Of a stretch of 64,000 nt of DNA, positions 47,524-54,419 are shown one piece after another. Both the position numbers and the translations under genes were made by a program. The stretch comes from Streptomyces sp. NBC_01478. Its GTDB lineage: Bacteria; Actinomycetota; Actinomycetes; Streptomycetales; Streptomycetaceae. The stretch is taken from positions 4,197,501 through 4,261,500 of the forward strand of contig NZ_CP109444.1 in assembly GCF_036227225.1 (NCBI RefSeq), read 5' to 3'. The notes below the pieces were generated by a model. It saw only the letters and a program-made list of their open reading frames with translations. It was not told where the DNA came from and did no database searches. Positions within the stretch are counted from its first letter, which is position 1. Each line of letters begins with the position of its first letter.

Positions 47524-47607
47524 ATGGTTGCCCAGGCCCGGAACTTCGCGTCGCGTCGCTATGTCGACCTGCGACGCCAGGCCGCGGCGACCTGTTACCG
47601 CCCCTGA
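47524..47607 (+). CDS. Putative leader peptide (leaderless)
   Basis: A 27-residue reading frame ending SRRYVDLRRQAAATCYRP. The pattern SRR-Y/H-VDL-x-R followed by a late cysteine matches the short leader peptides seen upstream of sulfur-related transport genes in streptomycetes. A TAGCTT -10-like box ends 7 bases before the ATG, so the transcript would begin at the ATG without a ribosome binding site. It precedes the ROK gene by 97 bases. I infer a role in translation-coupled control of the downstream genes by cysteine supply. The peptide is too short for homology to be certain. Confidence 0.65.
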   Translation: MVAQARNFASRRYVDLRRQAAATCYRP

Positions 47608-47638: not shown

Positions 47639-47658
47639 GTGTCTCGCATGTGAGACAC
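47639..47658. promoter_or_regulatory. 20-bp palindrome between leader peptide and ROK gene
   Basis: GTGTCTC-GCATGT-GAGACAC is symmetric at 18 of 20 positions. As DNA it looks like an operator; as RNA it forms a 7-bp hairpin right after the leader peptide stop, so it could take part in attenuation. Confidence 0.6.
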
Positions 47659-47704: not shown

Positions 47705-48931
47705 ATGCCCCGTAACGCGGCACCTCTTCTCCGCTCCCCCGTACCCCGCGCCGCCGACAGCGACCGGCGGCGCACCAACGCGAGTGTCATCCTGCGGTCC
47801 GTGCTGGAGCACGGGCCGGTGGCCCGCTCCACCATCTCGCGGCTGACCGGGCTGTCCCCGGCGTCGGTGACCGACTACTGCGCCCGCTTCGCCGAACTCG
47901 GCCTGATCCGCGAGTCGGCCACCCCCGAGCGGTCGGGAGGTGTGGGCCGACCCCATGTGCCCGTCGACCTGGACGGCACACGGTTCATCGTGGGCGGGGT
48001 CCATGTGGCCGTGCCCTATACGACCGTGGCGCTGCTGGATCTGCGCGGGCGGGTGCTGGCCGAGCGGCGGCTGCGGCACGACACCGCGGCCGGCCGCACC
48101 GAGCCTGCCCGGGTACTGGCCCGGGCCGCGGACGGGCTGGGCGCGCTGTTCGCGGAGGCCGCCGGATGCACCCCGCTCGGGGTCGGCGTGGCCGCCGGCG
48201 GCTGGGTCGACCGGGACTCCGGGACCATCGTCGAACATCCGCTGCTCAACTGGCGTGAGGTGCCGGTGCGCGAGCTCCTCGGCGCCCGCACCGGGCTCCC
48301 GGTCCATGTCGACGGCCACGCACGGGCGTTGGTGAACGCGGAGCGCCTGTTCGGGCGGGCGGCCCGCGGCAGCCGTAGCGTGCTGCATCTCTTCGTCGGC
48401 AATGTGGTCGACGCGGCCTTCGCCACCAACGACGAGGTGCACCACGGCCCTCGGTCCCAGGCCGGGGCGATCGCGCATCTGCCGCTGCGCGGCGGCACGG
48501 AACCGTGCGGCTGCGGGCGCGTCGGCTGCCTCCAAGTCGAGCTGAGCGAACGGACGTTGTGCCGTCGGGCCCGGGAGGCGGGGATCGTCGACGGGGTGAA
48601 CCCGACCCATGTCGTGGCCGCGGCCGAACGCGGAGACCCGCTCGCCGTACGGCTGTTGACGCAGCGGGCGCGGATGGTCGGGCGGGCGGCCGGGCTGCTG
48701 CTCGACATCCTCAACCCGGAGACGGTGGTCGTCACCGAGCTGGGGGTGATGCGGCGGGAGGACTGCCTGCGCGCGCTGCGCGAGGAGGTCGGTGACGGAC
48801 GGGCGTCGGCTGTCGTGCCGACGAGTTTCCCGGATTCCGTGCTGGCGGTTGCGGGTGGTTCGGTGCTGCTGGACGTGCTGTACCGGGATCCGCTGAGCGT
48901 GTCACCGAGCGCTTCACCGGGGCGTATTTAA
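47705..48931 (+). CDS. ROK family transcriptional regulator
   Basis: A 408-residue NagC/Mlc-type protein. The winged helix-turn-helix is at about 23-75 (STISRLTGLSPASVTDYCARF). The ROK domain follows, with a zinc-binding CGCGRVGC (C268, C270, C275). ROK regulators usually sense sugars. The position between two cysteine-containing leader peptides and upstream of a sulfonate operon suggests it controls that operon, but this is inference. The sugar-binding Glu-His pattern is not fully typical, so the ligand may not be a sugar. An AGGAAG site precedes the ATG. Confidence 0.9.
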   Translation: MPRNAAPLLRSPVPRAADSDRRRTNASVILRSVLEHGPVARSTISRLTGLSPASVTDYCARFAELGLIRESATPERSGGVGRPHVPVDLDGTRFIVGGVHVAVPYTTVALLDLRGRVLAERRLRHDTAAGRTEPARVLARAADGLGALFAEAAGCTPLGVGVAAGGWVDRDSGTIVEHPLLNWREVPVRELLGARTGLPVHVDGHARALVNAERLFGRAARGSRSVLHLFVGNVVDAAFATNDEVHHGPRSQAGAIAHLPLRGGTEPCGCGRVGCLQVELSERTLCRRAREAGIVDGVNPTHVVAAAERGDPLAVRLLTQRARMVGRAAGLLLDILNPETVVVTELGVMRREDCLRALREEVGDGRASAVVPTSFPDSVLAVAGGSVLLDVLYRDPLSVSPSASPGRI

Positions 48932-48953
48932 TTCAGAAACTCGGAATATTGAC

Positions 48954-48959
48954 AAGGGG
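48954..48959 (+). promoter_or_regulatory. Ribosome binding site of the Cys-Cys leader peptide
   Basis: AAGGGG lies 5 bases before the ATG at 48965 and is what makes this short frame credible as a translated gene. The TTGACA at 48949 overlaps it and is unlikely to be its promoter. Confidence 0.6.
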
Positions 48960-48964
48960 TGCGC

Positions 48965-49024
48965 ATGACCGGGAACATCCTGGTCATGAGCCTGCAGATG
49001 AGTTGTCGCACTTCTTGTTGCTGA
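48965..49024 (+). CDS. Cysteine leader peptide of the sulfonate operon
   Basis: A 19-residue frame, MTGNILVMSLQMSCRTSCC, with three cysteines in its last six residues and two of them directly before the stop. It has its own AAGGGG site and sits 120 bases upstream of the sulfonate-binding protein gene. In mycobacteria, short upstream frames ending in cysteine runs attenuate sulfur operons when cysteine is plentiful. Ribosome stalling at the Cys codons in starvation would change downstream RNA folding or coupling. The spacer 49025-49144 has weak hairpins (CGGAC/GTCCG near 49077-49092) and T-rich patches but no unmistakable terminator. Confidence 0.75.
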   Translation: MTGNILVMSLQMSCRTSCC

Positions 49025-49144
49025 CCCGTTGACGCGCCCCGAGCGCCGGTCTCATCCTGCCTGGATTTCTTTTTCCGGACTTCTCCGTCCGTGAATTTCG
49101 CGCGCATTCTCGCGTTCCCAAAACTTTGATCAGGGAGTCTTCCC

Positions 49145-50215
49145 ATGCCTCATTCCCGTGCGCCCGGCGTCGACCGGCGGCTCTTCCTCACCTCGGCGCT
49201 CGGTGCCGCCGCGGGCATCGCCGGCCTCAGTGGCTGCGCCACGAGCAGTGCCGCGACCGCCAAGTCGGGGGCCGGTCTGTCCGCCCCGCTCGCCCAGAAG
49301 GTGCCGTCCGGCACGAGTCTGAAGATCTCCTCGTACCTCAACACCCAGCAACTCCAGTTCAAACTGGCGAAGTTGCCCAAGTTGCCGTTCACCGTGTCGA
49401 GTTGGCTGAACATCGGGGCCGGTCCCGATGTCATCAACGCGTTCCGCGCCAAGTCCCTGGACCTCGCCAACAACGCGGGCATCCCGCCGATCCAGGCGCA
49501 CTACCAGGGCTACGACGCGAAGATCGTCGCGATCAATGTCACCCGCAAGCCCAACTACCTCTTCGCCACCAAGCCCGGCAGCGACATCCGCACCGTCGCC
49601 GACTTCAAGGGCAAGAAGCTGGCGTTCTCGCAGGGCCAGGCCCAAGGCGTCGTCCTGCTGCGGGCGTTGAAGGAAGCGGGCCTGGAGTACGACGAGGTGA
49701 AGCTGGTCCCGCTGACCAGCAACCAGTTCTTCACCGCCCTCCAGTCGGGCCAGGTCGACATCGCCCCGCTCGCCAACAGCCAGGCACCCGCGTACCTCAA
49801 GCAGTACGAGGCGAAGGGCGCCCGCGCCGTCACGACCGACGTCGTGGACCTGCTGAACCTGTTGTGGGCGCCGGCCGCCGTACTGGCCGACCCGGCGAAG
49901 GCCGCCGCGATCGCCGCGTACATCCCGCAGTGGGCGCAGGGGCAGGTCTGGCAGTACGAGAACCCGGACACCTGGAACGAGGAGTTCTACGTCAAGACGC
50001 AGAACCTGACTCTCGCGCAGGCCCAGTCGGTCACCGCGCTGGCCAACAAGCCGCTGTTCCCGCCGAGTTGGGACGAGGCCGTGAAGTGGGAGCAGGAGAC
50101 CGCCGATCTGCTCGCGGAGGGCGGCTTCGTGAAGGAGTTCAAGGTGGACTCGCTCTTCGACCGGCGCTTCGAGTCCATCGCGGCGCGGGCCGTACCGGCG
50201 GAGTACCGGAAGTGA
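49145..50215 (+). CDS. Sulfonate-type ABC transporter substrate-binding lipoprotein
   Basis: A 356-residue SsuA/TauA-like protein. The signal has a twin-arginine (R11-R12, RRLFLTS) and a lipobox LSGC with C31 as the lipid-bearing residue, so it is likely Tat-exported and lipidated. The mature part has the family pattern GPDVINAFRAKSLDLANNAG and the later ADFKGKKLAFSQGQAQG. AGGGAG is 7 bases before the ATG. It is first in a transporter operon whose next genes overlap it. The ligand is probably an alkanesulfonate or related organosulfur compound, inferred from the adjacent oxygenases. Confidence 0.9.
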   Translation: MPHSRAPGVDRRLFLTSALGAAAGIAGLSGCATSSAATAKSGAGLSAPLAQKVPSGTSLKISSYLNTQQLQFKLAKLPKLPFTVSSWLNIGAGPDVINAFRAKSLDLANNAGIPPIQAHYQGYDAKIVAINVTRKPNYLFATKPGSDIRTVADFKGKKLAFSQGQAQGVVLLRALKEAGLEYDEVKLVPLTSNQFFTALQSGQVDIAPLANSQAPAYLKQYEAKGARAVTTDVVDLLNLLWAPAAVLADPAKAAAIAAYIPQWAQGQVWQYENPDTWNEEFYVKTQNLTLAQAQSVTALANKPLFPPSWDEAVKWEQETADLLAEGGFVKEFKVDSLFDRRFESIAARAVPAEYRK

Positions 50216-51078
50216 CGGCCGTGACGACCTCGACGACCACTGCAACCAGCGTGCCGGTGACCGCCGTTGAGGAGAAGGCGGCGGTAAGGCGGCGCGGGCG
50301 GCGGCGCGGCCTCGCCCCCGGCAAGCGGCTGCCCGCCTCCCGGGTCATCGGCCCCGCGCTCTTCTTCGCCCTGTGGGCCCTCGCCTCCGCCGCCGGGCAG
50401 TTGGACCCGGCGGCGATCCCGGCGCCCTGGACGGTGCTGCGGACCGCCGGACGGCTGTGGACGTCCGGCACGCTCCCCACGGACATGCTGACCTCGCTGG
50501 AACGCGCCGCCTACGGCTTCGCCCTCGGCCTCACCGCCGGTGTCGTCCTCGCGCTGGCCGCCGGGCTGAGCCGGGTCGGCGAGGCGCTGATCGACGGGAC
50601 CGTGCAGCTCAACCGGGCGATCCCGACCCTCGGCCTCATCCCGCTGTTCATCCTCTGGCTGGGCATCGGCGAGACCTTCAAGATCGCCATCATCGCGATC
50701 GTCGTCTACATCCCGATCTACCTCAACCTGCATGCCGCGCTGTCCGGCATCGACCACCGCTATGTCGAACTCGCCGAGGTCCAGGGCCTGTCGAGGCTCC
50801 GGTTCATCCGCCAGATCGTCATCCCCGGCGCCCTGCCCGGCTTCTTCGTGGGCCTGCGGCTCGGGGTGACCGGCTCCTGGCTGAGCCTGGTGGTCCTGGA
50901 GCAGATCAACGCCACCAGCGGCCTCGGTTACATGATGTTCCAGGCCCAGAACTACGGCCAGTCGGACGTCATCCTCGTCGGCCTGCTGATCTACGGCGTG
51001 TTCGGTCTGGTCTCCGACAGCGCGGTCCGTCTCGTCGAACGGAGGGTGCTGTCATGGCGCCGCACACTCAGCAGTTGA
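50212..51078 (+). CDS. Sulfonate-type ABC transporter permease
   Basis: A 288-residue SsuC-like permease. The first 45 residues are a Thr/Val- and Arg-rich cytoplasmic extension. About six helices follow, and the ATPase-coupling EAA loop is VELAEVQGLSRLRFIRQIVIP. The start is GTG 50212, which overlaps the stop of the binding-protein gene (GTGA) with GGAG 8 bases before it. The 3' end overlaps the ATPase gene by 25 bases. These overlaps imply tight translational coupling. Confidence 0.92.
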   Translation: MTAVTTSTTTATSVPVTAVEEKAAVRRRGRRRGLAPGKRLPASRVIGPALFFALWALASAAGQLDPAAIPAPWTVLRTAGRLWTSGTLPTDMLTSLERAAYGFALGLTAGVVLALAAGLSRVGEALIDGTVQLNRAIPTLGLIPLFILWLGIGETFKIAIIAIVVYIPIYLNLHAALSGIDHRYVELAEVQGLSRLRFIRQIVIPGALPGFFVGLRLGVTGSWLSLVVLEQINATSGLGYMMFQAQNYGQSDVILVGLLIYGVFGLVSDSAVRLVERRVLSWRRTLSS

Positions 51079-51773
51079 CCACCGCACCGCCCACCGTCCA
51101 ACTCCGGGGTCTCACCCGGTCGTTCGACGGTCGTACGGTCCTCGACGACATCGACCTCGACCTGCCCGCCGGACAGTTCACCGCACTGCTCGGGCACAGC
51201 GGTTCCGGCAAGAGCACGCTGCTTCGGGCCATCGCGGGCCTGGACCACGAGGTCGTCGGGAGCGGTCAACTCACCGCCCCCGAACGGGTGTCGGTGGTCT
51301 TCCAGGACTCCCGGCTGCTGCCCTGGCGCCGGGTGCTCGACAACGTGCTGCTGGGGACGGAGGGCAAGGAAGCCGCCGAGAAGGGCCGCGAGGCCCTTGC
51401 CGAGGTGGGGTTGAAGGGCCGTGAGCGCGCCTGGCCCAACGAGTTGTCCGGCGGTGAGGCGCAGCGCGCCGCTCTCGCCCGGTCCCTGGTCCGTGAGCCC
51501 GAACTCCTGTTGGCCGATGAGCCGTTCGGGGCGTTGGACGCGCTGACCCGCATTCGGATGCACGTGTTGCTGCGCGAGCTGTGGGAGCGGCATCGGCCCT
51601 CGGTGTTGCTGGTCACGCATGACGTGGATGAGGCGATTGTGCTTGCGGACCGGGTGTTGGTGCTGGAACGGGGGCGGATCGGGCTGGACTTGGCCATCGA
51701 CCCCGAGGTGCCGCGTGCGGAGTACCGGGAACGGTTGCTGGCGGCGCTCGGTGTGACGTCGGATTCCCGGTGA
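51054..51773 (+). CDS. Sulfonate-type ABC transporter ATPase
   Basis: A 239-residue SsuB-like ATPase with Walker A GHSGSGKST (47-55), the Q-loop in VVFQDSRLLPW, signature LSGGE (131-135), Walker B LLLADEP (151-157) and the H-loop THD. The ATG at 51054 lies within the permease gene, 7 bases after GGAGGG. It energises import. The last two bases before the stop begin a triplicated 18-bp repeat. Confidence 0.94.
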   Translation: MAPHTQQLTTAPPTVQLRGLTRSFDGRTVLDDIDLDLPAGQFTALLGHSGSGKSTLLRAIAGLDHEVVGSGQLTAPERVSVVFQDSRLLPWRRVLDNVLLGTEGKEAAEKGREALAEVGLKGRERAWPNELSGGEAQRAALARSLVREPELLLADEPFGALDALTRIRMHVLLRELWERHRPSVLLVTHDVDEAIVLADRVLVLERGRIGLDLAIDPEVPRAEYRERLLAALGVTSDSR

Positions 51774-51823
51774 TCGTCGGCCGCGCGGTGACCGTCGGTT
51801 GCGCAGTGACCGTCGGTTGCGCG
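51770..51823. repeat. Three tandem 18-bp repeats over the ATPase stop codon
   Basis: GTGAYCGTCGGYYGCGCR occurs three times head to tail. The second and third copies differ by one base; the first differs by a few. The first copy contains the TGA stop of the transporter ATPase. Each copy carries a GTGA. Confidence 0.85.
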
Positions 51824-51831
51824 TGCCGCCC

Positions 51832-51846
51832 GGGGGCTGCGCCCCC
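51832..51846 (+). terminator. GC-rich hairpin after the transporter operon
   Basis: GGGGGC-TGC-GCCCCC, the common Streptomyces intergenic hairpin, followed by AGACCCCC. It may end transcripts of the transporter genes and leave the monooxygenase gene with its own promoter. Confidence 0.55.
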
Positions 51847-51880
51847 AGACCCCCATCGGCCCTGAAGGGGCCTCGTCCTC

Positions 51881-52112
51881 AAACGCCGGACGGGCTGAAT
51901 ATGGGCGGCCTGTGCTGAAAGGCACCGGTCCGGCTGGATGTTGGCAGCCCGTACTGAAAGGCGCCGGACGGGCTGGATGTTGGCAGCCCGCGCCGAAAAG
52001 TCGCCGGACGGGCTGATTGTTGCCGCCCGCGTTGACAAGGCGCCGACCGCCCGATGGTCGCCGCCCGCCTCGACAAGACGCCGGCCGCCCGACAGTCGCG
52101 GACCGCGTCGAA
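51881..52112. repeat. Array of six degenerate 37-39-bp hairpin repeats
   Basis: Units begin near 51881, 51918, 51957, 51996, 52035 and 52073. The best-preserved unit contains CGGGCTG-GATGTTGG-CAGCCCG, a 7-bp hairpin (51969-51990). Neighbouring units keep CGCCGGACGGGCTG in front, decaying to the right. The first unit is the familiar Streptomyces intergenic sequence with CTCAAACGCCGGACGGGCTG. The array fills most of the 393-base gap before the monooxygenase gene, and no coding sequence is convincing there. Confidence 0.75.
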
Positions 52113-52166
52113 ACGGCGCTCGAAGGACCGACTCCCGCACCGGAACACTCACACAAAGGATCTGGC

Positions 52167-53510
52167 ATGCCCCGCCGTCTCCACCTCAACGCCTTCCTCA
52201 TGAACACCGGGCACCACGAGGCCTCCTGGCGCCTCCCGGAGAGCAACCCCTACGCCCACGTCGAGCTGGACCACTACACACACCTCGCCCGGATCGCGGA
52301 GCGCGGCACCTTCGACTCCCTCTTCCTGGCCGACGGACCGCAGTTGTGGAGCAACCTGGCCCAACGACCGGCGGGCGCACTGGAACCGCTCACGCTGCTC
52401 ACCGCGTTGGCGACGGCCACCGAGCACATAGGCCTGATTGCCACGGCCTCGACGTCCTACAACTCCCCCTACAACCTGGCCCGCAAGTTCGCCTCGCTCG
52501 ACATCATCAGCGGCGGCCGGGCCGGCTGGAACATCGTCACCACCGCCGGTGCCGAGGCCGCCCGTAACTTCGGTCTGGCGCACGAGCCCGCGCATGCCGA
52601 ACGGTACGCACGGGCCGCCGAGTTCCTCGATGTGGCGTTGAAGCTCTGGGACAGTTGGGAGGACGACGCGATCGTCGCCGACAAGGCGGCGGGGGTGTGG
52701 GGCGACGACACGAAGATCCACCCGCCCCACCACCAGGGGACGTACTTCAGCGTCGAGGGCGCCCTCAACGTGCCCCGCTCACCCCAGGGTTACCCGCTGC
52801 TCGTGCAGGCCGGGTCGAGCGAGGACGGCAAGGCGTTCGCGGCCCGGTACGCGGAGGCCGTGTTCACCGCGCAGCAGACCCTCGCCGACGCGCAGGACTT
52901 CTACCAGGACCTCAAGTCCCGTACGGCGGCGGCCGGTCGGGACCCCGAGCACATCAAGGTGCTGCCCGGCATCGTCCCGGTGATCGGCGGGACGGAGGCC
53001 GAGGCCCGCGCGAACGAGCGGCTGCTGGAGGACCACATCGTGTACACGCACGGCGTGGACCATCTGGAGCGGCTGCTCCAACTACCCTCCGGCACGCTGG
53101 AGTTGGACGCCCCGCTGCCCGCCGGCCTTCCGCCCGAGGACGCCATCGAAGGCGCCAAGAGCCGCTACACCCTCGTCGTCGAACTCGCCCGCCGGGACCG
53201 GCTCACCGTGCGGCAGTTGATCGGCCGGCTCGGTGGCGGGCGCGGGCATCTCACCTTCGCCGGTACGCCGGAACAGGTCGCCGACGCGATCGAGTCCTGG
53301 TTCACGCAGGGTGCCGCCGACGGCTTCAACATCATGCCCGCGGTCCTGCCGTCCGGCCTCGACGCCTTCGTCGACCACGTCGTCCCGCTCCTGCGCACCC
53401 GCGGTCTGCTCCGCACGGAGTACGGCCCGCGCACCACCCTCCGGGAGCGCTACGGCCTCCCCCGCCCCGCCAACCAGTACACCCGACCCGCCCAACCCGC
53501 CCTCGTCTGA
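52167..53510 (+). CDS. LLM-class flavin-dependent monooxygenase (NtaA/SnaA/DszA family)
   Basis: A 447-residue TIM-barrel enzyme starting MPRRLHLNAFLMNTGHHEASWR. It contains the ADGPQLW and STSYNSPYNLARKFASLDIISGGRAGWNIVT blocks typical of two-component FMNH2-dependent monooxygenases such as nitrilotriacetate, dibenzothiophene-sulfone and dimethylsulfide monooxygenases. It would cleave C-S (or C-N) bonds in imported organosulfur compounds. A separate flavin reductase is required and none is adjacent. AAGGA is 7 bases before the ATG. The dioxygenase gene follows after 12 bases. Confidence 0.92.
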   Translation: MPRRLHLNAFLMNTGHHEASWRLPESNPYAHVELDHYTHLARIAERGTFDSLFLADGPQLWSNLAQRPAGALEPLTLLTALATATEHIGLIATASTSYNSPYNLARKFASLDIISGGRAGWNIVTTAGAEAARNFGLAHEPAHAERYARAAEFLDVALKLWDSWEDDAIVADKAAGVWGDDTKIHPPHHQGTYFSVEGALNVPRSPQGYPLLVQAGSSEDGKAFAARYAEAVFTAQQTLADAQDFYQDLKSRTAAAGRDPEHIKVLPGIVPVIGGTEAEARANERLLEDHIVYTHGVDHLERLLQLPSGTLELDAPLPAGLPPEDAIEGAKSRYTLVVELARRDRLTVRQLIGRLGGGRGHLTFAGTPEQVADAIESWFTQGAADGFNIMPAVLPSGLDAFVDHVVPLLRTRGLLRTEYGPRTTLRERYGLPRPANQYTRPAQPALV

Positions 53511-53522
53511 AAGGACTTCAGC

Positions 53523-54419
53523 ATGTCCATCGAGATCGAGATCCAGAAGGTCACCGCGAACATCGGCGCCCGCGTGTCCGGTGTCGACATCAACAAGCCA
53601 CTGAACGCCGAGCAGGTCGCGGCGATCCGCGAGGCCCTCAACATCCACAAGGCGCTGGTCTTCGACGACGTCCACCTCGACGACGAGGGCCAGGAGGCCT
53701 TCGCCCGCCACTTCGGCGACCTCACCACCGCCCACCCCACCGTGCCCGCCGTCGACGGCGCCCCGAACGTGCTGCCCGTCGACAGCGAGCGCGGCCGGGC
53801 CAACCACTGGCACACCGACGTCACCTTCGTCCTCAACCCGCCCCAGGCCAGCACCCTGCGCTCGATCACGGTCCCGCCGTACGGCGGCGAGACCCTGATC
53901 GCCAGTTCGGCCGCCGCCTACCGCGACCTGCCCGAACCGCTGCGCGCCCTCGCCGACACCCTGTGGGCGGAGCACACCAACGACTACGACTACGCCGTAC
54001 CGGACGAGGAGATCGACGGCGAAAAGGCGGCCCAGCGCGCCCAGTTCACGTCCATCAAGTTCCGCACGGTCCACCCGGTCGTCCGCGTCCACCCGCTGAC
54101 CGGTGAACGCGGCCTGTTCATCGGCGGGTTCGCGCAGCGGATCGTCGGCCTGTCGACCGGTGAGTCCCGCAAGATCCTCGACATCCTCCAGGCGTACGTC
54201 ACCCGCCCCGAGAACGTCCTGCGCTGGCGCTGGTCCCCGAACCAGCTCGTCCTGTTCGACAACCGCATCACCCAGCACTACGCCATCGACAACTACGACA
54301 ACCAGCCCCGCCGCCTCAACCGCGTCACCGTGGCCGGCGACATCCCGACCGGCATCGAGGGCAAGCAGAGCTACTCGATCGAGGGCGACGCGTCGCACTA
54401 CACATCGGTCGCGGAGTAG
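53523..54419 (+). CDS. TauD-type alpha-ketoglutarate/Fe(II) dioxygenase
   Basis: A 298-residue enzyme with the iron ligands H97 and D99 (HWHTDVTF) and distal H252 (TQHYAI), and the ketoglutarate-binding Arg in [12 protein letters not shown]. It is in the taurine dioxygenase / alkylsulfatase group, which releases sulfite or sulfate from sulfonates or sulfate esters. The size and the [15 protein letters not shown] block resemble AtsK-like alkylsulfatases. AAAGGA precedes the ATG. Together with the monooxygenase it completes an organosulfur desulfurisation module. Confidence 0.93.

Follow-up and report, generated by a model that had tools for sequence, protein, structure and literature searches.

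The operon and its upstream region

We analysed a window of 64,000 nucleotides from Streptomyces sp. NBC_01478, in which a ROK-family regulator gene is followed by a short cysteine-ending frame and by genes for a transporter, a monooxygenase and a dioxygenase (Table 1). An earlier note, made from the sequence, had described these neighbours as a sulfonate-type ABC transporter linked to two desulfurising oxygenases, and profile matches bore this out: SsuA/SsuC/SsuB-like transporter proteins, an NtaA/DmoA-family monooxygenase and a TauD-family dioxygenase. Degenerate tandem repeats with periods of about 18, 38-39 and 78 nt (window 51753-52119) occupy most of the gap between the ATPase and FMN monooxygenase genes.

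The short frame itself had been presented as a 19-codon leader at 48965-49024, with its own AAGGGG ribosome-binding site, lying 120 bases upstream of the transporter. The frame reads MTGNILVMSLQMSCRTSCC followed by a stop, AAGGGG stands just 5' of it, and the distance is correct: 120 nt separate the end of the stop codon from the substrate-binding gene, whose ATG is at 49145. Among the 551 short ORFs of the window (8-60 aa, one per stop, both strands), a single one ends in Cys-Cys-stop and, judged by length and ending, it is the leader frame.

Table 1. Coordinates of the features discussed, in window positions
Feature	Position	Strand	Basis or remark
Second leader ORF MVAQARNFASRRYVDLRRQAAATCYRP-stop, before the ROK gene	47524..47607	+	NF042934 22.5 bits, cut-off 27
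ROK-family regulator gene	47705..48931	+	PF00480 116.9 bits; upstream of leader, same strand
17-bp dyad ATTCAGAAACTCGGAAT, candidate ROK operator	48931..48947	+	0 mismatches in 68/78
-35 hexamer TTGACA	48949..48954	+	Present in 78/78
Earlier N-terminal extension (MTGNILV)	48965..48985	+	In-frame start in 31/78 only; overlaps -10 hexamer
-10 hexamer GAACAT	48973..48978	+	18 nt after -35, 7 nt before ATG 48986
Leader ORF MSLQMSCRTSCC-stop, 12 codons	48986..49024	+	Start at dyad+55/56 nt in 78/78
Leader Cys codons	49004-49006 (TGT), 49016-49018 (TGT), 49019-49021 (TGC)	+	Sequence
Possible hairpin over Cys codons and stop (GUCGCA / UGC-U-GAC)	49005..49025	+	RNAalifold, 40 sequences
Pyrimidine-rich spacer, C > G, possibly rut-like	49025..49144	+	No terminator-like site
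Possible GCGC/GCGC hairpin 3' of stop	49034..49046	+	Core invariant or one-sided changes
Shine-Dalgarno GGGAG of binding-protein gene	49133..49137	+	Has local complement
SsuA-like substrate-binding lipoprotein gene	49145..50215	+	TIGR01728 107.3 bits, below cut-off 163.5; NMT1
SsuC-like permease gene	50224..51078 (start approximate)	+	Below NCBIfam cut-off
SsuB-like ATPase gene	51075..51773 (start approximate)	+	Below NCBIfam cut-off
NtaA/DmoA-family FMN monooxygenase gene	52167..53510	+	TIGR03860 553.8 bits, cut-off 279.7
TauD-family dioxygenase gene	53523..54419	+	PF02668; PRK09553 229.9 bits, below cut-off 313

Start of the leader and its promoter

Scanning GTDB contigs with the binding protein returned 78 named loci, 76 from Streptomyces and 2 from Actinacidiphila. 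Counts over 78 sequences refer to the window plus 77 of these loci, L065, in which no promoter or leader was found, being omitted; the loci are related, so that the counts are not independent. A stretch resembling AATTCAGAAACTCNGAATNTTGACA (19-25 of 25 letters matching) is present in the window and in 77 of the 78 named loci. Counted from its first base, the leader start codon (ATG in 76 sequences, GTG in 2) follows after 56 nt in 70 sequences and after 55 nt in 8. A start equivalent to 48986 is found in 78/78, whereas an in-frame start at the position of 48965 is found in 31/78; some in-frame start between dyad and ATG occurs in 51/78.

The spacing expected of a leaderless short ORF was found at this start, a hexamer of the form nAnnnT ending seven nt before it in 74/78 sequences (GAACAT 51, GAGCAT 19, others 4). 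This spacing places the most likely 5' end of the mRNA at or close to ATG 48986, and the leader ORF is probably leaderless. The AAGGGG, whose first base is the last base of the -35 hexamer, is then most likely promoter DNA, and the segment 48965..48985 is probably promoter DNA as well, and untranslated. A generic promoter scan found no promoter at this place, as expected from a -10 hexamer that is far from TATAAT. In S. lividans, promoters of the nTGACn and TAnnnT kind and a 17% share of leaderless transcripts are given in the available part of PMC8079986.

A Shine-Dalgarno-led ORF of 19 codons beginning at 48965 has the open frame and the AAGGGG on its side. Yet its in-frame start is confined to the 31 loci mentioned above and would fall upstream of the inferred transcription start, and we regard this ORF as highly improbable; 48965 was rejected as a general start. 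The earlier note was right on the frame and its sequence, while its start codon and its AAGGGG ribosome site did not hold.

Conservation of the leader end and signs of translation

The leader ends in Cys-Cys-stop in 75 of the 78 sequences and in Cys-Arg-stop in the other 3, so that adjacent Cys codons of the mycobacterial polycysteine type are nearly always present and the first Cys of the pair is kept in 78/78. Conservation of the terminal Cys codons in relatives was the check that had been proposed in the earlier note, and the leader passed it. The first codon of the final pair is TGT in 78/78 and the second is TGC in 72, TGT in 3 and CGC in 3; the stop codon is TGA in 78/78. Across 459 called genes of the loci, only 14% of Cys codons are TGT, so that its invariance here needs a separate explanation. 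Further upstream, Arg is kept in 77/78 and Thr in 74/78, the latter by all four codons (ACC 47, ACT 20, ACA 5, ACG 2); a variable residue stands between Thr and the final pair. On this conservation the short frame is real, and a chance ORF was ruled out.

From start to stop the leader counts 8, 11, 12 or 13 codons in its short form (n=66) and 27, 50 or 52 in its long form (n=12), and the frame is open from the conserved start at all seven lengths, including the 8 loci in which the ATG comes one base earlier. The peptides include MSCRTLCC, MTCRTLCC, MLLTSCRTLCC, MSLFVSCRTLCC and the MSLQMSCRTSCC of the window. In the 12 long leaders entropy is highest at the third codon position (0.195, 0.240 and 0.492 for positions one to three). 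In 38 twelve-codon leaders the values were 0.488, 0.493 and 0.429, and the lack of a third-position excess means that the short form alone is no proof of coding selection. Judged by these values, the short form is under nucleotide-level constraint as well as any peptide-level constraint.

Distribution and origin of the leader

A leader of the type MDRHxVNLVKRRVIDLMRVGRSSC[CR]R-stop, starting at dyad+56, is found in three loci of another family of the order (MDRHHVNLVKRRVIDLMRVGRSSCCR, MDRHHVNLVKRRVIDLMRVGRSSCRR and MDRHLVNLVKRRVIDLMRVGRSSCRR), whose binding proteins are 60-61% identical. On a tree of 82 binding proteins, the long form occurs in these other-family loci and in the first-branching Streptomycetaceae, and the short form needs at least 3 changes of state. 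With the other family as root, the short form is probably derived.

When 293 genomes were evenly drawn from the order, 28 loci were returned (9 of them duplicates of named loci), and dyad and Cys-Cys-stop leader were present in 28/28. Among 20 further close orthologs (3 duplicating named loci), 19 had dyad and leader; the remaining one, L195, has the leader MSPFTSCRTLCR without the dyad. We also looked at 20 divergent homologs over 900 nt 5' of the gene, a span beyond which more distant elements would be missed. L211 has the leader, five homologs of 39-41% identity carry leaders of RRxxD(L/F)xRVA(S/T)AxCS-stop type, and L197 (L219 in a longer read) has a different Cys-rich ORF, MNPMEHLEEQAHRAGLGAARCRRRCRPFCR, spotted by eye. 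In the 13 homologs of 52-58% identity no such leader was found within the 900 nt. Close orthologs thus typically have the leader, whereas the transporter family as a whole does not always have it.

Four of these 13 (L206, L207, L209 and L210), which are more distant operons with a different gene order, have a dyad-like site with GTTGCATTGTTGACC 728-899 nt upstream and an ATG at +55; in L210 this site runs straight into a gene resembling, by eye, a flavin reductase gene. A pattern search of the own genome gave 9 matches, the window's leader included, and a plasmid collection gave no DNA match.

The dyad and the ROK regulator

Of the named loci, 73 extend far enough to be judged; in 71 of them the ROK gene is the immediate upstream neighbour, and in these 71 the dyad has at most 2 mismatches. 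Over the 78 sequences it has 0 or 1 mismatch in 76, 2 in L069 and 4 in L071, which is without ROK. Among other loci with no ROK gene nearby, the best dyad has 4-5 mismatches within the 400-600 nt scanned in L065, L004 and L195, and L197/L219 has no such stretch (13 of 25 letters). This degeneration of the dyad where ROK is absent supports it as a ROK operator, and it is probably bound by the adjacent regulator. The leader is retained in L071 and L195 despite the absence of ROK, and lost in L004 and L065. The arrangement of the SsuR/CysR type, an inverted repeat upstream of -35 and linked to a ROK gene, is found here; within the 12.1-Mb genome, the dyad with TTGACA has only this exact copy.

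A second candidate leader precedes the ROK gene. By pattern search, a similar ORF was found at 68 of 79 loci, all 68 with Cys (5 were too short and 6 had none found). Its NF042934 score is below cut-off, and such sub-threshold matches also occur in 6/14 control genomes, so its case rests on conservation. In L004, which lacks ROK, the binding-protein gene is immediately preceded by the end of a leader of this type. Between the ROK leader and the ROK gene the window also has a perfect inverted repeat, GTGTCTC..GAGACAC (47639-47658); as a conserved part this repeat was rejected, its TGTCTC..GAGACA core being present in 1/68 sequences only.

The spacer and possible RNA structures

The spacer between leader and binding-protein gene was compared with control regions, that is, regions before other genes of the loci as given by a crude GC3-based caller. 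Spacer and folding counts omit L072, L073, L087 and L094, which have no Shine-Dalgarno-led start near the match, leaving 74 loci. The C-rich, G-poor region expected after a Rho-type leader was found by composition: on average the 74 spacers have a pyrimidine content of 0.685 vs 0.524 (sd 0.064) in 364 control regions and a C-G skew of 0.273 vs 0.051 (sd 0.175). The window's own spacer is less extreme than this average, with 65.0% pyrimidine and a skew of 0.228 vs 50.8% and 0.023 in its 27 control regions; it is reached by 2/27 controls (7.4%) for pyrimidine and by 11.1% for skew. The pyrimidine-rich spacers suggest that attenuation of the Rho type is favoured. In L086, L088 and L107, short repeats of the type ACGTTGACGC lie 3' of the leader stop.

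RNA structure was examined in an alignment of 40 of 45 selected short-form sequences, and the predictions allow one hairpin spanning the Cys codons and another 3' of the stop. The former is nearly invariant in the 40 aligned sequences, with no two-sided change, and hence comes without covariation evidence; by its best arm, six pairs can form in 69/78. A compensatory A-U change in L081/L082 was not borne out, as only 5 of 6 pairs form there, via another arm. Against Rfam, the region 48400-49600 gave one weak match only, EFASI at 16 bits vs 51.2, away from the leader.

A probable cysteine-responsive leader

The position of the frame, its conservation, the fixed promoter spacing, the linkage to operon and ROK gene, and the composition of the spacer are observed. 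In our view, 48986-49024 is likely to encode the leader peptide of an operon for organosulfur uptake, translated from a leaderless mRNA and acting by cysteine stalling under a ROK-controlled promoter and most likely through Rho. A leaderless ORF whose Cys codons adjoin its stop, and which precedes genes supplying cysteine, fits a supply of cysteine sensed by the ribosome. Transcription would run from TTGACA-N18-GAACAT, next to the probable ROK-bound dyad, and start at or near the AUG. From there on we infer translation, cysteine response, stalling and Rho action: with scarce charged Cys-tRNA, ribosomes would stall on the Cys codons beside the stop, whereas with plentiful cysteine they would complete the leader and leave. 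Stalling would let RNA polymerase proceed into the ssuA-like genes, most likely because Rho is kept off the C-rich spacer. A ribosome halted on the Cys codons would shield the first part of this spacer, since the stop codon follows directly. Within the leader model, we favour coupling through Rho with about an even chance of being right.

In M. smegmatis, a stalled ribosome reportedly frees a hidden Shine-Dalgarno sequence. The earlier note had referred to cysteine-rich short upstream frames as mycobacterial attenuators, and in the available parts of PMC9031893 and PMC13236596 attenuation of translation by cysteine codons is reported for M. smegmatis. Applied here, a stalled ribosome would break an mRNA structure hiding the downstream Shine-Dalgarno, which has a local complement in 45/74 loci and, in the long-form loci L037 and L041, a predicted pairing of 0.82 with the leader. 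Yet the predicted pairing has a median of 0.002 and a mean of 0.059, blocking a ribosome footprint on the Cys codons raised the predicted accessibility by more than 0.1 in 1/74 loci only, and the spacer varies from 87 to 298 nt. Folding thus gave no support for release by a stalled ribosome, the coupling reported for mycobacteria, and we find this translational attenuator rather unlikely. A classical attenuator, switching between terminator and antiterminator hairpins, could make use of the small GC hairpin seen 3' of the stop in the 40 aligned short-form loci, but terminator-like sites occur in 18/74 spacers vs 13.3 (sd 3.1) in shuffles, and none was found in the window's own spacer. Moreover, folding of the window's leader region is not stronger than that of shuffled sequence (z 0.30), and covarying alternative helices were looked for without any being found. 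An intrinsic terminator between leader and gene was rejected, as not enriched over shuffles, and the classical scheme appears very unlikely.

Two further readings concern the leader itself. It might be a conserved untranslated DNA or RNA element, such as a protein or regulator site, that is open by chance; its near-invariant nucleotides and the absence of a third-position excess in short forms would agree with this. But the frame is preserved over seven lengths and a 1-nt shift, the long forms vary in a coding-like manner, and the other-family leaders differ in sequence and still retain Cys near the end, which makes such an element quite improbable. Alternatively, the R-T-x-C-[CR]-stop chain could arrest the ribosome on a sulfur metabolite, with no role for slow decoding of Cys. 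The Arg, the Thr kept through four different codons and a final pair whose first Cys is constant while the last may be Arg speak for it, whereas this conservation may in part be due to an RNA hairpin and an 8-residue chain is short for arrest; we hold this arrest to be unlikely. A combined form, in which an 8-13-residue peptide of this pattern would be a minimal arrest sensor responding to nascent chain and UGU, not only to Cys-tRNA, and gating Rho, is doubtful to us. If true, such an arrest sensor would form, together with the Cys leader of the ROK gene, a sulfur switch with two tiers and two leaders.

We read the locus as one in which a leader peptide most likely responds to cysteine and transcription is probably under ROK control. 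It would extend cysteine leader control to organosulfur scavenging in Streptomyces, with the start of the element corrected. The leaders from 52 down to 8 codons also offer a natural series for testing coupling in terminator-less actinobacterial cysteine leaders.

Relation to known leaders and regulators

The mycobacterial Cys leaders of Canestrari et al. (2020, Mol Microbiol) are considered here through the available parts of citing papers (PMC9094748, PMC9031893, PMC13236596). Like them, the window's short ORF is actinobacterial, probably leaderless, carries adjacent Cys codons and precedes sulfur genes; it probably works as they do. Unlike them, it has another peptide, Cys codons directly at the stop and an adjacent putative ROK operator, and release of the Shine-Dalgarno by stalling is not predicted for window-type leaders. 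Seliverstov et al. (2005, PMC1262725) proposed candidate Cys leaders upstream of cys operons in Mycobacterium and P. acnes and of cbs in B. longum; the available text calls the mode of regulation unknown and suggests Rho. Those leaders share with ours runs of Cys codons near the stop, the lack of a conserved terminator and polyY motifs in the spacer, but the same text reports no Streptomyces or sulfonate operon for cysteine.

In C. glutamicum, SsuR and CysR are ROK activators with inverted repeats just upstream of -35 and leaderless transcripts (PMC2580772, as available). The likeness lies in the ROK regulator, the inverted repeat at -35 and the sulfonate and sulfate genes, and does not imply orthology; a leader peptide goes unmentioned in the available part of that paper. 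In S. lividans (PMC8079986, available part), amino-acid leaders are mostly leaderless, as is probable here, but the eight that are named cover Leu, Trp, Ala, Ile, Met and Thr; the leader for Met contains Cys, and none precedes a sulfonate operon. Among the matches listed in a literature search that covered few subscription papers, there was no Cys leader before a Streptomyces sulfonate operon.

The window peptide (21 residues as tested) matched none of the NCBIfam Cys-leader models NF042933, NF042934 and NF042936, nor does the SCRTxCC-stop form, so that annotation may miss ORFs of this kind. Scores of three further peptides, taken from other loci, were below cut-off with the NCBIfam leader models, the long form of L037 reaching 15.8 bits vs 45. 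The long orthologous leaders do share with these models, among them NF042934 (cis_reg_atten), an xDLMRV core and terminal Cys. In the own genome NF042934 gave at least 21 matches, 8 of them over cut-off, when 150 of 447 candidates were scored; the lowest-scoring places resemble chance. Several of these matches (L112-L132) precede genes whose N-termini resemble, by eye, cysteine synthase, sulfite reductase, rhodanese and flavin monooxygenases, and the matches may possibly form a genome-wide cysteine-leader regulon.
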